Shown here piece by piece: positions 12,622 to 23,775 of a DNA stretch of 64,000 nucleotides. The stretch spans positions 1-64,000 of the forward strand of contig CAIUSV010000044.1 in the NCBI GenBank assembly GCA_903901915.1, given 5' to 3'. The DNA is from an uncultured Rhodospirillaceae bacterium. GTDB lineage: Bacteria; Pseudomonadota; Alphaproteobacteria; Rhodospirillales; Magnetospirillaceae. The first letter of the stretch is position 1, and each line of letters begins with the position of its first letter. The notes under the pieces were generated by a model. It did not search any database and was not told where the DNA came from. It saw only the letters and a list, made by a program, of their open reading frames with translations. The position numbers and the translations under genes are program-made.

Positions 12622-14967
12622 TTACGAAAGCCGGCGCAGTTCGCTCGCCATCTCCTCCAGCAGGGCCAGCACTTCGTGCGAGGCGCCGTTCAGGCGATCG
12701 ACCTCGGCCAGAGCCTCGGTGGTGTCACCGTGGGCGTGAAGTTCCAGCGCCACCCTGCCGTGGGCGTGGACCCGCTGATGAGGATCGAGCAATCGGCCAT
12801 AGGCCGGCAGACGGGTCAGACGGTCATCCTTGAGCGTATCGTACCACTTGCCCAATCGGCAGGTATGATGATCGGTCAGTTGGCCGGACGTCAGCGCGTT
12901 GCGCCCCATGATCCGATCGAGAATGGAACGCTTGAACCGAATATGGTCGTTCTTGGCGACCTGAAGCAACGTCTCGGCGGTACCGAGCTTGGCGAACTCC
13001 TCCGCCCTACCGTCAAGAACGTCGGCCGCATTGGTCATGGCCTTAAGAACTTCGGATATTTCGTCCAGATTCTCATGCGCCAACGCGGCGATATCACCGG
13101 TGGCCGAAGACACTTCGGCCGCAGCCGAATTCTGCTGGTTAAGGATTTCCGAAATTTCCCGCATGCGCTCGGTAACGCCGTCGATACGTCCGGCGATAAT
13201 ACCCAGACCATCGGTGACCTGCGCCACCGCCGCCGTCCCTTCCTCCGCCGCCCCGCGCGAGCGGACCATGGAGTCCCGGGCGCCATTCATGTCGGAAATC
13301 AACCCGCCGATGCGTTCGCGAATGTCCACGGTGGCCTTGGCGGTCTGGTTGGCGAGATGTTTGACCTCGTTGGCGACCACGGCGAAGCCCTTGCCGGCCT
13401 CGCCGGCCCGCGCCGCCTCGATGGTGGCGTTGAGCGCCAGCAGGTTGGTCTGTCCGGCGATATCCTCGATCTGGTCGATGATGGTGGCGATCAGGTCCGA
13501 GGTCTTGCCCAATGCCTCGATCTTGTCTCCCACTTCGGCGACCGCCTGCATCAGGGCGGTCATGACCCGTTGGGCGGTTTCGGTCGCCGCCACGCCATCC
13601 CGTGCGGCCACTTCGGCGTTGTATGCCTCGTCGGCGGCGATGGCCGAGGACTGGGAAATGGTATCGACCGAGGCCACCATTTCCTCGATGGCGCTGGCGA
13701 TGGATTGGGTCTGTTCGGCCGAACGGCGCACCGAAACCATCATCCGGGCCAGGACCACGCCGGCCTCGTTGCTTTGGACGGCGGCTTCAACCACGCCTTC
13801 CAACTGAAGTTGCATGCCGTCCTGAAGTGCCTTATGCCCGGTTTCCAGTTCCGCGACGCTACGCTGCTGCGCCGCCTCCAACTCGGCAGTGCGCTGGACT
13901 TCCCGCTTGACCACTTCGACGGCCCGCGCCATGTACCCGATTTCGTCGGCGCGCTCGAGACCGGCGATCTCCACGTCGAAGTCGCGTCTGGCGATGCGGT
14001 CCAAGGCGCCGCTCATGGCCAGAACCGGCCGGGTGATGGCGCGGCCGAGCCAAGCGCCAAGCGCGGCGGCAAGCACCAGTGCGCCAAGCACCAGCCCCCA
14101 CATGATCCGATGCACTTCGGCCAGTTGGCCGCCGTAGAGGCTGGCGTCCATGGCGATTTCCGCGACCCCCAGCGGCTTGCCGCTATAATCGGCGACCACC
14201 CGTCCCAACACGGCGATCCTGCCGCCCTTGCCGTCCTCCATCGCCTTGATCACGTCCCGCCCCGCCAGGGCGGCGGCAATCTCGGACGACTCGAGGTTGG
14301 ATGTCGGCAAGGTTCCGGCAAACATCTTGAAGCCGTCCTTGCCTGGGACATGCAACACCACATCGACGCCATAGGATTTCTTGAAATCATTGAAAAAGGG
14401 CTGCCCGAAACTCATGCCGAATTCAATCGATCCCACATGCCGGCCTTCGTCGAACAGCGGCGTCAGCCCGCGCACCCCCAGACCGGCGACGCCGTATTCC
14501 AACCCCTTGGTCGGCTTCTGCGTGGCATTGGTCTGAACCACGGTCTGGCGAATGGCCGACAGGTCGTCACCGAATTTGGCCGGAGCGTGCGCCCGCAGGA
14601 ACGAAGTGGCCGGCGGAGTATGAAACTGGAACTGCTCGATGCCGAAAGTGGCCGCCATCGCCTTGAACGGTGGCAGCATCTGGGCCGCCAGCTGATCACG
14701 TTGTCCGGTAGCGACCAGATGGGATACCCCCGGAAGATTGGCCACCAGAACCGCCAGGGCGCTGGCCTCATCGGCCGCCCCCGAGATCGCGGCAGCCAAC
14801 TGCTCGAATCGCCCGACAAGCTCGCGGTGTTCCGCCTGCTCGATCAGCGAGACGGCATGGCGGTTGGCGACCCACCCCATGAACGCGGCGGTTCCCACCG
14901 ACATGGCGATCAGGGCGGTTCCAAATCGAGCGGCGATTCCAATGGCCATATCTTTGCGAGCCTTCAT
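12622..14967 (-). CDS. methyl-accepting chemotaxis protein with periplasmic sensor, HAMP, MCP signalling and C-terminal CZB domain
   Basis: [40 protein letters not shown] hairpin tip; C-terminus HIRFKRSIL...[13 protein letters not shown]...HQRVHAHG matches CZB zinc-binding residues. Confidence 0.9.
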
Positions 14968-15897: not shown

Positions 15898-15915
15898 CAC
15901 TGACAATTGTCAGTG
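15898..15915. promoter_or_regulatory. perfect 18-bp palindrome CACTGACAATTGTCAGTG, candidate Crp/Fnr-family operator
   Basis: TGAC-N4-GTCA symmetry; lies between the divergent crp/fnr gene and the tandem-CZB gene. Confidence 0.7.
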
Positions 15916-16009
15916 ATGACCTGCCGCGTCGCCGCCTATACAGACAACACTCCCGGCGCCGGATTACCACGCGCCGCCCCGATGTCTTCGCACCCAAGGA
16001 CGACGCAAG

Positions 16010-16885: not shown

Positions 16886-17332
16886 ATGCCCATGCGATTG
16901 CATTCACCTTTCGGCCCAACCTGCCTTCAGGGCACGGGAACCGCGACGCCGGCAACGGCGGGGGGAGCCGTCACCTGTCCCCAGACCGGGGGATCACTGA
17001 CCGCCAAAGGATTGGGCCTTAAGGCTGGCGCGGGAGCCGGGAGCGGCCTGGGACTTGGCCCCTGCGGCACCGGCACCGTCGGCAAGACGGCTCTGGGCGC
17101 CAAGGGGGCGTTGGGAGCCAAGGGAGCCACCGCCGTAGCCTGGAGCGTCGGGGGCGGCGCGGCCACCGGCCACGGCTTCAGCCTCGGCCTCGGTCTGGGC
17201 TTGGGGGCATGGGGGCCGGTCCTGTTGGGGGCCGGGGTCGTGGCGCTGGGTTACTACCTCTACGCCAACCGGGATCGCCGGCCGGTCCCGAAGGATGAGC
17301 TGGCATCCGCCCTTGAAGACATCAACCGCTGA
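16886..17332 (+). CDS. Mms6/MamD-like LG-repeat protein (magnetosome-associated family)
   Basis: Gly/Ala-rich region then SLGLGLGLGAWGPVLLGAGVVALGYYLYANRDRR...DELASALED; the LGLGLGLGAWGP(I/V)(I/L)LG motif is characteristic of Mms6/MamD/MamG proteins. Confidence 0.72.
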   Translation: MPMRLHSPFGPTCLQGTGTATPATAGGAVTCPQTGGSLTAKGLGLKAGAGAGSGLGLGPCGTGTVGKTALGAKGALGAKGATAVAWSVGGGAATGHGFSLGLGLGLGAWGPVLLGAGVVALGYYLYANRDRRPVPKDELASALEDINR

Positions 17333-17339
17333 TCTGCCC

Positions 17340-17361
17340 GACCGGCCGAAAAAGGCCGGTC
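17340..17361. terminator. hairpin GACCGGCC-GAAAAA-GGCCGGTC between convergent genes
   Basis: Perfect 8-bp stem at the convergent gene end; no strong U-tract. Confidence 0.45.
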
Positions 17362-20300
17362 ACCGGCGCCCCTCTTCGACCAACCCGCGGATGGCCGCCG
17401 CGATGACGGCATACCGCTGCTCGACGGTATCAATCAGCCCATTGATCGATTCAGCGGTGTCGCCGTCGAGAATGGCCCGCTCCATCTGCGCCGCCGCGTC
17501 GTGGACGCCGGTGACCCCCAGAAAGGCGGAACTACCCTTCAGCGAATGGGCGATACGGCGCGCCTCGGCGATCTCGCCGGCGGCCAGATGCGCCCTCACC
17601 CGCGCCATGTAGCCGCCGTACTCTCCGGCATAACTTTCAAGAACCGAAACATAGCGGATGGCCCGGCGGCAGTATTTGATGCCCACCTCGACGTCGATTC
17701 CGTCAACATGGCCGAGATGGCGCCGCAGACGCGCCTCTTCGTCTTCATCGGCGACGGGCGTGGCCGCCTCGGACGGCGCGGCAACAGCCTGAGAAGAGGA
17801 TATCGTCAGCCATTTGAGCAGGGCGCCATAAAGGTCCTCGGGCAGAACGGGCTTGGCCAGATGGTCGTTCATGCCGGCCGCCAGGCACCTGTTCTGGTCC
17901 TCGGCGAATGCGTTGGCCGTCATCGCCACGATCGGCACCTGGCGCCCGGCCGGTAACCGCCGGATCGCCCTGGTCGCGTCCAACCCATCCATCTCGGGCA
18001 TCTGCATGTCCATCAGGATCAGATCGAAGCCTCGGGACCTCACCGCGTCCACCGCATGTATACCGTTCTCGGCGATTGCCGCCTTCAATCCGATATCCGC
18101 CAACATCCCCAGAACCACCTCTCGGTTGGTCCGGTTGTCTTCGACCAGCAGAATGCGGGCCTCGGCATACGTCTCGGTCAGGCGCCTCTCGACCTCGGCG
18201 GCACTCAGTCCCGCCGCCTCGCCCCCCACCGCCGGCACCTGTTCGCCCGCCACGCCCAAGACCGCATCGAACCAGAACAGGCTGCCGGCGCCCGGTGTAC
18301 TGTCAAAGCCCGCCCCCCCTCCCATCATCACCGCCAGACGCCGCGTGATGGCCAGCCCCAGGCCGGTTCCACCGTATTTACGGCTGGTGGAATCGTCCGC
18401 CTGCTGAAAATCGGTGAACAGCCGGCCTTGCGCTTCGAGGGGAATTCCCACCCCGGTATCCTCGACTTCAAAGCGGCACAGGACCCCGCCGTCACGGTCC
18501 TCGACCTTGCGGGCGCGCAGGACGATCGCGCCCTCGGCGGTGAATTTTATCGCGTTGCTGAGATAGTTGAGCAGGCATTGCCTGATCCGCAGTTGATCAC
18601 CGTTCAACCGGAATGGAATAGCCGGATCGACCTCCACCGACAGGGACAATCCCTTGTCGTCCACGGCCTGGGCGACCTGAAGACGGGCAACCTCGATCGC
18701 GGCACGGAGATCGAAATCCCCGGCACTGAGCGTCAATTTCCCGGATTCAATTTTCGAGAAATCAAGAATGTCATTTATAAGTAGCAAAAGATGCTGGCCA
18801 GACATTAATATCTTATCAATGATATCTATATTATCCCTTTTTTCAACCCTCCTCCTGAGCATCGATGCCATGCCAATAATAGCATTCATTGGCGTTCTTA
18901 TCTCATGACTCATATTTGCGAGAAATGACGACTTTGCATGGTTTGCCGCATCAGCGGCAATATTACTTTTCTGCAATTCAATATTCTTAATCCGGATATC
19001 ATCCTCGGCAATCTTGCGCTCGGTAATATCCTCGAAAACCCAAATGCTTCTATTCCCGGAAAGCTCTTTCTGAATGATCTGCCCCGACACCCGAATCCAG
19101 ATATCCCGACCACTAATGTGGCGCATTTGCAGCTCTGTCGTATAGCGCTCCCCTCGATCGAGAATAGGGTAGCCGCTACGTTGGATTTCGTCATAGTCTT
19201 CGTCTGAGATGAACAGGCATCGCGTTGAAACGCCATTCAGCTCTCCCTGAGAATAGCCAAATATTTTTTCGACCATCCTGTTTGTCCAAACGAATATGCG
19301 ATCCCTGATGTAGGCGATACCAACGCTGGAGTTGGACAGAATCGTATTAAGCTCCTCCATTCTTTGATGGAGGCTGTCGTTTAAACGGATCTGGTCGGTA
19401 ATATCGCGGGAGAAAATCGCGACGCCGGAAATGACGCCGCGACTGCCATGCACAGGATATATCCGGTTGTCGAGGATCAGCTCACCCTGTTCATCCTGAT
19501 TGCACAGGGGCGTACCGGTTTGGATGACCTGGCGGCATTGCTCCCGGCGCGATTGCGCCAGAGCGGGAGGGAGAAGGGCGAAGAACGATACGCCGATCAG
19601 GTCTTCGACCCGGGCGTTGACCCGCTCGGCCAACGCCTGGTTCGCCGCCAGTGTGATTCCGTTGCCATCCATCAACAGGGCGGCGTCACCGGAGGCATTG
19701 ATCAGCGTCCTGGCGACTCCCTCGCTGTCGGAAAGCTTCCGCTGCTGTCGTTGCGCCCACAACAGCAGCCCCGCCATCACCAGCGAAGAAACGAAGACGG
19801 TGGCCAGGGTGATTTTGTTGCGCAGGTTGGTGGCGGCGATGGTTTCATGGATGGGTGCCAACTCGGCCCTTTCGTCCAAGGCCACCACCGAGATCAACGG
19901 CCATTCGCTGAGCCGCTTCCACGCAAAATCCAGCGGAATATTGTCGATCGACGACATCCCGCGATAGGTTTCGGTATCGCTGCGGGCGGGATCGAGGAAC
20001 GGCCGGTCGGCGGGAGTCTTGCGGCCCATGGCCTCTTCCATGCCGTGGTTGCGCGCCAGGAAGGTGCCGTCGCTCTGGATCAGCGAGACAACGTCACCTG
20101 GGTTCAGCGACAAGGCGGCAAACGATGCCGAAAGATATTCCGGCCGAATGCCGACGACCGCCACCCCCAGGAACCGACCATCCTTGCGCACCGCACGGGA
20201 AAAGACGATCACCCACCGCTTTTCACCCAAACGCCCTTTCAATGGGCTGCCGATGAACAATCGGTCCTCGTCGCTTTCGGCGTGAAACTTGAAATATTGG

Positions 20301-20698
20301 CGATCTCCGACGTAAAGCCCCTGGCTGACGGTGTCGGAGGAATAGGCCACATGCCCGGTCGGATCGACAACCAGGACCAGATTGACCGAGCCCGACGGAA
20401 GACTTCTAATAATATGAGCGGCTTCGCGGTTGGCCTCCGCTTCTCCCTGGGCCAGCGCTTCTCGCAGATGGAACAACGCCATTTCCACAAGGCGGATCAG
20501 CGCGACGGTATGCTGGCTGATCGAATCAGCCAGCTGCTTGGCCCGCAGATCATTGCGCGCCATGGCTTCGGTCAACAGCCGCTCCTGGACCCTGGCGGAA
20601 TCGACCGTATAGAAAAAGCCGAACGCCGCGCTCAACACGATGATGGCCACCGCCATCGCCGAGAGAAGAGGAACGCGAATCCGCATGGGGCTAGACAT
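17360..20698 (-). CDS. hybrid sensor histidine kinase/response regulator (dCache-PAS-PAS-HisKA-HATPase-REC-Hpt)
   Basis: [46 protein letters not shown]...[14 protein letters not shown], and Hpt [12 protein letters not shown]. Confidence 0.93.
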
Positions 20699-21425
20699 CG
20701 TCCCCGGAGACTACGGCGCCATCCGCCTTCGCCGTCGTGTTCAGGACATGATGGATCATGGCGCGGGTCTGGCCGTATTCCTCGGGAGCGAATTTTATGA
20801 TAAGGCAGTCGCCATCGGCCCGCTCCACGGTGCCGGTCGTCTCGATCCTCTGGCTCTCCAGCAGGGCCCCCCTGATCCTGGGAATAAGCCCGATCGCCAC
20901 GGAAGCGACGGACGGAACCAGCGTTGTCCGCAGCGTCATCGAGTCGACCGAAATGTCGACCACGTCCACCATTGCCCCACCGATATCGGCCTTGATGCCC
21001 TGGCCGGTAAGACGGGGAAACTTCCGGCGCTCCAATTCCTTGACGTGCTGGGCGACGGCCCGATCGTGACTGAACAGATCGACGACGATTTCGACCAACC
21101 GCTCTTTCAGGGCCTGGCGCATGGCGGCGATATCCGCTTCGTCGCAGACGAGGTGCCGCAACCCCTCGATGCGCGACTCCGCCTTTCTATGGGCGGCAAG
21201 ATGCTTGGCCTTGGAAGACAGATCATCCTCGGGAAACAGTTTTTCCTCGTCGGCGAAGTGAATGGTCGACAATTCCTGAAATTCCATCACCGCGGTCTGT
21301 GCCGCTTCGACATAGCCCTCATCGACGGCGAGACTCAGGCCCGAGAGCAGCTGCATCAGCTGCCTATGCTGGTCGTCGAGCCGCGTGTTGCCGACGGACA
21401 TGGACTCGTGCCAACTGAACCGCAT
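20691..21425 (-). CDS. hemerythrin-domain protein with C-terminal PilZ-like domain
   Basis: N-terminal [20 protein letters not shown]...H...FxxEE...HxxxHxxxE hemerythrin pattern; C-terminal [19 protein letters not shown] resembles PilZ RxxxR...; overlaps the kinase gene by 8 bp. Confidence 0.78.
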
Positions 21426-21440
21426 GGCAGGTCTCTCCTG

Positions 21441-23570
21441 TTAACGGGCCTGGCCCATTGATGGAACGGCCCCTTTTGCCTTGCGGGCAAGATGGGCGGC
21501 AAAATCGATATCGGTTTTCTGGATATGAACCAGCAGCCAGTCCTTGAGGAATTGCAGGACCTTGAGCGAAACGGTGCCGCTTCGCATCTCCAGCTGCTTC
21601 TGAAACTCCTCGACCTTGGCGATGAAGCCGGCATGCGCCTGCATATGGGCATCGAAGCCCGGATAGGTGGCCCGGTCCATCTGCGCCTGCTCGCGGGCGA
21701 AGTGCTCGCGGGTATAGGAGATCAGGTTGGCCACCACCCGCTCGATCGCCTCCGAACCCTGGCCGCCCAGCATGGCGGTGTGCAGGTCGTTCACATAGGC
21801 GATCAATCTTCGGTGATCGCCGTCGATCATCGCGTTGCCGGTGACCAGACTGTCGGACCAGGCAAAGAAGCCGCCTTCTTCCTCGACCGAAGCATCACTG
21901 ATGCTCGACAGGAACCCGTGAACATCCTCTCTCAGCTTGGTCGCCCGCGCTCCCAACGCCGTCGCCGCCACCGAAACGTCGCGGGCGGCCGTATCAACGC
22001 CCTTGGCGCCATCCAGAACCTCCGAGGCGCTGTTCGAGACCTCGGCGGTTCTTTGCGACGCCGCCTGTACGCTCCGCGAAATCTCGTCGGTGGCCGCCGA
22101 CTGTTGCTCGACGGCGGCGGCAATGGACGCCGAAATCTGGCTGACCTCCTCGATGGTGGCGGTGATCCCCCGCAATGCGCTAACGGCATTGTCGGTAGCC
22201 ACCTGCACCTCGGAGATCTGATCGGCGATGCTGCCGGTGGCCTTGGTGGTCTGCGCCGCGAGTTGCTTGACCTCGCTGGCGACCACGGCGAAGCCCTTGC
22301 CGGCTTCGCCCGCCCGGGCCGCCTCGATGGTGGCGTTCAGCGCCAACAGGTTGGTCTGGGACGCTATGTCGTTGATCAGGTTGACCACGTCGCCGATCCG
22401 CTGGACCGCCGCGGCAAGCCCCTGGACCAGGACATCGGTCCTCGCCGCCTCCTCGGTGCCCGAGTGGGACACTTGGCTGGCCAGCGATACCTGCCGGGCG
22501 ATTTCCTGAATCGACGCCGACAGTTCCTCGGCGGCGGAGGCGACGGTCTGAACATTGCCCGAGGCCATGTCCGAAGCCACCGCCATCGCGTTCGCCCGTC
22601 CCGACACCAGTTCCGCCACCTCGGCCATGGACTGCGCCGACTTCTCCAAGGTCACCACGGAATGAACCAGTTCCGTCACCGTCGCGCTGGCAATGCCGTC
22701 AAACTCGGTGGTGATCTCCTCGATACGCTCGGCCCGCTTCTCGCGCGCCGCCTTGTCCGACTGGATTTTCTCGCTGATGGTGCGGCGCTCTCGCTCGCCT
22801 GCCCGCCACACCTCGATGGCGGAAGCCATGGCCCCGATTTCGTCACTGCGGCCGACTCCCGGGATGGCGACATCGAGTTTACCCGCCGCCAGACTGCCCA
22901 TGGTTCCCGTGATGCCGCCTAACGGCAGGGTGATGGAACGGGCAACGGCGATGGCGCCGACGCAGGCAAGAACCGACCCGATGGCGGCAAAAATAAGGGC
23001 GGCGGCCTTGTACCAGCCATCGCTGGCGTCCGCCTCCTTCTCGGTCGCCTTGATCAAACGGTCGGACTTGATCACCAGCGCATCGATCGCCGAGCGATGA
23101 ATTTCGTAGGCTGCGGTCATATCGCGGAACGCCGTTTCGGCCGCCGCCCGATCACCGCGCCCAAGGGCGGGGAACAACGCTTTTTCGCTCAGATCAAAAA
23201 AGCGAATCGCCGGCCCATATGACGTGTCGAGAAGAAGTGTGCGAATATCGGCATCGACATTGGCGCTCGACCAGAACGCGTGACGATCGTCATAGTCCGA
23301 TCGAAGCCGCCGCATCTTCTCGATGTATATTTTATAATCTTCGGCAGGCGCCGTTATGGCTTTCGATGCCGTCAGGTATGATTCGATGATGTATTCCGGC
23401 GGCGGCAAAATGTCCGCCACCAGATCCTTTTCCTGGGAAATCTTGTTATAGATCGGACCATTGACCTTCAACGTATTGAGGGCCACCCACCAGCCTGCGG
23501 ACACGCAGGAGATGGCCAGGGGAAAGAGCGTGGCAAGCACAAGAAGCTTACCTTTGATTGTCAAACTCAT
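21441..23570 (-). CDS. methyl-accepting chemotaxis protein with C-terminal hemerythrin domain
   Basis: TM-sensor-TM-HAMP, [35 protein letters not shown], then [22 protein letters not shown]...HFAREQAQM...HAGF...HIQKTDIDF. Confidence 0.9.
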
Positions 23571-23775
23571 AATCAAATCTCATTGATAAGCTTCGGAGAT
23601 TTTAACCTGGACGCCGGTACGGCGGCATCCATCCGGGTATTCCCACCTGACCGGGGTGAAAGGTGCCCCCCCGCGGTTTCGATACCCGTGCCGCAAATCA
23701 AGCTGATCCACGAACCCGCGCGCGTGCCAGTCCCAAACAGGACCTCCGGAATGCCGCAAGCAATGCCGGCGCCGC

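Follow-up and report, generated by a model that had tools for sequence, protein, structure and literature searches.

A sixth group of LG-repeat proteins of magnetotactic bacteria, encoded beside a tandem-CZB protein

The window, by which we mean the whole 64,000-nucleotide stretch of DNA analysed here, contains an open reading frame (ORF) that an earlier note had described as a 148-aa Mms6/MamD/MamG-like protein in a signalling locus. Is this protein one of these magnetosome proteins or a relative of them, and what might it do next to a tandem-CZB gene? The ORF reads as described, with an RBS-like GGAG upstream (Table 1), and its product does carry the LG-repeat/transmembrane (TM) signature of magnetosome proteins: a [LV]GLGLGLGxWGP tract, then one TM helix, then a short charged tail. 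Small membrane proteins of this type, rich in glycine and leucine, shape the magnetic crystals of magnetotactic bacteria. The only hydrophobic segment has its peak window at residues 104-122, consistent with one predicted TM helix, and AlphaFold places a helix at residues 110-127 in a model of such low confidence (pLDDT 47.5) that it is uninformative. Acidic residues had been noted in the C-terminus; the tail is charged, but with five acidic and five basic residues it has no net acidity. Differences from the gene's orthologue in strain SS-4 fall 35/27/71 by codon position, a third-position excess that fits a protein under selection.

Three CZB domains are encoded in the region, two in the tandem-CZB gene and one at the C-terminus of a dCache_3-HAMP-MCP receptor (12622-14967) that adjoins the Crp/Fnr gene. 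Downstream of a hybrid kinase gene (17360-20698), the interval 20691-23576 encodes a hemerythrin protein and an MCP whose C-terminus is a hemerythrin domain.

Table 1. Features of the CZB-LG locus, in window coordinates
Feature	Position	Strand	Remarks
Crp/Fnr-family regulator, 231 aa	15154..15849	-	length from the start codon common to orthologues (ORF list start: 15906)
Operator CACTGACAATTGTCAGTG	15898..15915	.	perfect 18-bp palindrome, FNR-like; between the divergent Crp/Fnr gene and the CZB gene
TATACA	15937..15942	+	conserved -10-like hexamer (inferred promoter)
Stand-alone tandem CZB protein, 283 aa	16010..16861	+	Pfam CZB 7.5e-19, two stretches
LG-repeat membrane protein, 148 aa	16886..17332	+	member of group "X", the sixth set of LG paralogues in magnetotactic bacteria
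LG tract SLGLGLGLGAWGP	17180..17218	+	residues 99-111; begins the sole hydrophobic segment

Relation to known LG-repeat proteins

Scored against NCBIfam profiles, the window LG protein fell below every cut-off: 46.6 bits for MamD (NF040916; 2.7e-12, cut-off 100 bits), 35.8 bits for Mms6 (NF040917; 8.5e-9, cut-off 200 bits) and 32.5 bits for MamG (NF040985; 7.6e-8, cut-off 100 bits). The MamD match spans only profile positions 228-313 of 318, the C-terminal part. Masking the 13-residue LG tract left no similarity to the other LG groups in profile scoring, with the Mms6 score at -1.3 bits, within the range of shuffles; an alignment to Mms6 or MamD beyond the tract, on which the earlier note had made its proposal depend, was thus not found by sequence methods. 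This disappearance is what one might see if the protein were a generic, low-complexity glycine zipper that resembles Mms6 and MamD in composition. Against such a protein, none of 1,000 full shuffles per profile (Mms6, MamD, MamG and Mms5) reached the score of the intact sequence, and among 1,000 shuffles that kept the LG tract and the regional composition at most one matched or exceeded it for each profile. Since the unmasked sequence outscores its shuffles and masking erases the similarity, shared ancestry with the LG proteins is argued solely from the LG/TM core.

We collected 68 LG-type proteins from the family genomes; they fall into MamD, MamG, Mms6, Mms5, group X and a 250-aa "LG islet" type that accompanies a second MamD. 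In the tree, group X is set apart by a 1.48-long stem with support of 100/99; its nearest branch is Mms6, a weak join (89/75) that is flagged as a meeting of long branches. Cut-offs, tree and masking together lead us to reject the identification of the window protein as Mms6, MamD or MamG. As judged from its sequence, the protein represents a separate LG-repeat paralogue group beside Mms6, MamD, MamG and Mms5.

Distribution and genomic setting

Among 55 family genomes, the window LG protein (P0001) matches 22, all in lineages with MamE-type matches (one genome, G011, being counted through its congener G012), and there were no LG matches in the family lineages without them. A class-wide sample of 394 other genomes gave no match at E<=1e-5. 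The best hits outside magnetotactic bacteria that would have spoken against the earlier note are therefore not seen, and this confinement to magnetotactic lineages, together with the shuffles, largely refutes the glycine-zipper explanation and leaves it very improbable.

Intact or near-intact members of group X occur in the window genome, a Telmatospirillum MAG (G008), SS-4 (G048), G040, G021, G043, UT-4 (G030) and PR1 (G038; frameshifted in the assembly), and in all eight the CZB and LG genes adjoin. We take G021 to be MSR-1 and G039 to be AMB-1, with which the gene order is consistent; the CZB-LG operon is absent from the presumed AMB-1 and from others. G043 is XM-1 (PMC5073270). Of the 17 genomes with MamE over cut-off, 12 have an orthologue of the CZB protein (>=66% identity), vs 0 of the 38 others (Fisher 1.4e-8, relatedness ignored); within the genus, none of the six members without MamE over cut-off has one. 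CZB has a divergent Crp/Fnr gene as its neighbour in the window genome, G008, G040, XM-1, SP-1, G031 and VK2.

In PR1, the CZB-LG pair has feoAB and an LG/MmsF-like pair on one side and mamY-mamX-mamZ-ftsZ-like genes on the other; MamY, MamX and MamZ are all over their cut-offs. The pair is likewise a few kb from mamY in SS-4 and in G021. With the pair a few kb from mamXY in PR1, SS-4 and the presumed MSR-1, its apparent isolation from magnetosome genes is a peculiarity of the window genome. The locus had been described as lacking magnetosome genes, and this holds for the 97-kb contig: a tblastn search of the whole contig with the MSR-1 mamAB, mamGFDC, mms6 and mamXY ORFs (E<=1e-4) gave no homologue, and the only matches of MSR-1 magnetosome-region ORFs were between hemerythrin-domain proteins. 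It does not hold for the genome, which encodes full MamD on contigs C65 and C11, MamG on C11, MamE over cut-off on C21 with a second MamE-like gene on C50, and two MmsF/MamF-like proteins that matched no NCBIfam model. Mms6 on C21 (170.7 bits, cut-off 200) and MamY on C74 (464.9 bits, cut-off 600) score below their cut-offs and far beyond chance. These genes place the window genome in a magnetotactic lineage and make the window part of a non-island contig.

Away from the mamG-F-D genes on C11, the same genome holds a second LG islet (G000:C65:22788-24763; L037 10708-12770), which encodes a 261-aa LG protein and a full-length MamD (408 bits). Related pairs or LG members occur in XM-1, G034, G038, G040, G048, G011, G012 and BB-1; the one in XM-1 lies at 1.62 Mb, far from that strain's mms6/mamXY region.

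The LG gene is less constant than its neighbour. No LG gene accompanies CZB in G031, LBB-42 or VK2. In that of P. marisnigri SP-1 (L046:2460-2660) an in-frame gap, possibly a real deletion or an assembly collapse, joins the N-terminus to the KDELAVAL tail, leaving neither LG tract nor TM segment. Separately, 81-aa CZB remnants occur upstream of mamY in M. moscoviense BB-1 (L066:8673-8914) and beside mamX/mamZ-like genes in P. kuznetsovii LBB-42 (L048:5573-5815).

A published deletion bears on function. MSR-1 strain dA5, which lacks mgr4151-mgr4174 (19,651 bp beside mamXY), forms wild-type magnetosomes (PMC3197154). Summed, the A4, mamXY and A5 lengths differ from the dA7 deletion by no more than a few hundred bp, which puts A5 on the side of mamXY away from mamAB. 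In G021, mamE lies at 2,499-2,502 kb, mamY at 2,456 kb and LG at 2,450 kb; from this order and the side of A5, the MSR-1 LG and CZB genes would fall inside dA5, a mapping made in this analysis and not stated in PMC3197154. Any role of LG or CZB would then be conditional or redundant under laboratory conditions.

These observations raise the possibility that the magnetosome island carries the LG protein as a passenger: an LG duplicate that serves, or once served, general membrane or redox signalling with CZB and has no magnetosome role. The wild-type phenotype of dA5, the loss or degradation of LG in several magnetotactic genomes while CZB persists, and the MCP, hybrid kinase and hemerythrin genes around the window locus would all suit such a passenger. 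Three other observations would not: the gene keeps strictly to genomes with magnetosome genes, even within a single genus, it shows the synonymous-site excess, and its LG/TM core is nearly invariant vs 65% identity over the remainder. We regard the passenger explanation as a possibility of the second rank, and a rather doubtful one.

The tandem-CZB protein and the control region

The LG gene begins 24 bp after the tandem-CZB gene and both stand downstream of the Crp/Fnr operator, in agreement with the earlier note. Pfam CZB (PF13682) scores 68.3 bits on the tandem-CZB protein, in two stretches, against a gathering threshold of 29.4, and the Pfam search found no MCP or CheW domain in it. Its predicted 3His/1Cys zinc ligands (H15, C41, H68 and H72; H170, C196, H223 and H227) are invariant in 11 orthologues. 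Published work on CZB domains places sensing at this site, be it of zinc, of HOCl or of a redox-dependent supply of zinc (PMC8262984; preprint PMC13370339). The structure model (pLDDT 79) shows two helical bundles, which match the DosC MID domain and the DgcZ CZB domain (3t9o) by domain only, with probability 0.99-1.0, TM-scores to target of 0.66-0.81 and weak E-values (~0.9). A PDB sequence search with the CZB alignment gave no match, and in the literature searched we found no paper that brings "magnetosome" and "CZB" together.

Most CZB domains act in chemotaxis (PMC8262984), and a preprint connects one CZB receptor with taxis toward oxygen (PMC13370339). On these grounds the CZB-LG pair might belong to magneto-aerotaxis, linking the magnetosome chain or membrane to chemoreceptor signalling and not to crystal growth. 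The dCache_3-MCP-CZB receptor next to the Crp/Fnr gene would fit such a link. The tandem-CZB protein's lack of an MCP or CheW domain speaks against it, as does the fact that no MCP-CZB neighbour was seen at the other loci, and we consider a taxis function improbable.

All 12 intact CZB loci carry the 12-bp operator core, TGACAA[AT]TGTCA, upstream of the CZB gene, although the remaining spacer has diverged. A TATACA/TATATA-like -10 follows about 30 bp downstream of the operator centre across the CZB loci, a spacing that would set this centre at about -42, the position of a class II activator. The core is rare, with 0-5 occurrences in each of 11 genomes, and it also precedes ccoG (G021, G025 and G031) and nirS (the presumed AMB-1 and SS-4), identities that were read from N-terminal sequence. 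In VK2, a neighbour of the CZB-Crp/Fnr pair likewise reads as ccoG by its sequence. Given the motif and the other genes that it precedes, the CZB-LG operon would be expected to be induced at low oxygen. The tie to redox and metal sensing suggested by the earlier note is thus upheld as a prediction, through the CZB zinc ligands and the FNR-type operator. A second core in the window genome (C24:459) lies inside a repeat-protein ORF and is probably a chance occurrence. We also asked whether the operator regulates mam/mms LG genes in general and found this unsupported: a perfect site, TGACAATTGTCA (C108:716-727; L119), lies directly upstream of an mms6-mmsF-like pair in G031 only, and elsewhere sites occur at chance level.

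The divergent Crp/Fnr protein keeps three of the four essential cysteines of FNR, namely C35, C38 and one in the position of Cys122. The third FNR cysteine is replaced by Phe or Ala in all seven Crp/Fnr sequences, which makes oxygen sensing by a canonical [4Fe-4S] cluster doubtful. The cysteines of MgFnr and its consensus, TTGAN6TCAA, have been described (PMC4065386). We rejected the Crp/Fnr gene as a magnetosome-specific factor, since homologues of 60-70% identity occur in non-magnetotactic relatives.

A candidate accessory operon and its known counterparts

The explanation we put first, at roughly even chances and unproven, is that the window ORF encodes an accessory, low-oxygen-induced LG-repeat magnetosome protein that is co-expressed with a Zn/redox-sensing CZB protein. 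One operon would yield the LG protein and a cytosolic tandem-CZB protein, with the divergent FNR-type regulator switching it on at low oxygen through the palindrome at about -42, so that microoxic or denitrifying cells would induce it. The LG/TM segment would insert into the magnetosome membrane, probably handled by MamF-like proteins, and the CZB protein may report the cytosolic zinc or redox state and so modulate or time the accessory function of LG. Among these elements, we infer the magnetosome-membrane destination, the induction at low oxygen, the binding of zinc and any contact between CZB and LG. A stronger version, in which the tandem-CZB protein directly controls the LG protein in the magnetosome membrane and couples the state of organelle or crystal to redox and metal supply, we consider unlikely.

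Published work offers points of contact. Mms6 is directed to membranes by its GL repeat (PMC11332177), and MamF-like proteins target glycine-rich C-terminal helices that follow Ala-rich domains (PMC11628618); the two MmsF/MamF-like genes of the window genome fit delivery of this kind. In MSR-1, mms5op and mms6op, which carry LG paralogues, are upregulated under anoxia, and most magnetosome genes are almost constitutively expressed (PMC9549626), which is why a specifically regulated accessory operon would be informative. If our reading is right, the magnetosome parts list would gain another LG-repeat subfamily, separately regulated and with a sensor partner of its own, and with it a testable candidate for how the organelle is tied to redox and metal state.

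Compared with FNR and MgFnr, the regulator has the Crp/Fnr fold and its operator contains the TGA-N6-TCA core of the MgFnr consensus (PMC4065386), but the third iron-sulphur cysteine is missing in all orthologues and the operator flanks are C/G, not T/A. With DgcZ and TlpD, the tandem-CZB protein shares CZB domains, here two, with 3His/1Cys ligands and the CxLGxW motif; it differs in having two domains in tandem and no output domain. The window LG protein resembles MamD/Mms7, which gave its best NCBIfam E-value, in the LG tract and TM segment, but is without the N-terminal part of ~200 residues. Like MamG and Mms5 it is a small LG-repeat membrane protein, although these have another tail and form groups separate from X in the tree. 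From Mms6 it differs in lacking the DEEVELRDALA-type acidic motif, in its tail charge (five acidic and five basic residues vs seven and three in the same genome's own Mms6) and in having no mmsF-like gene beside it; the two share an LG repeat followed by a TM helix and a short charged tail, and both have a Gly/Ala-rich N-terminal region.
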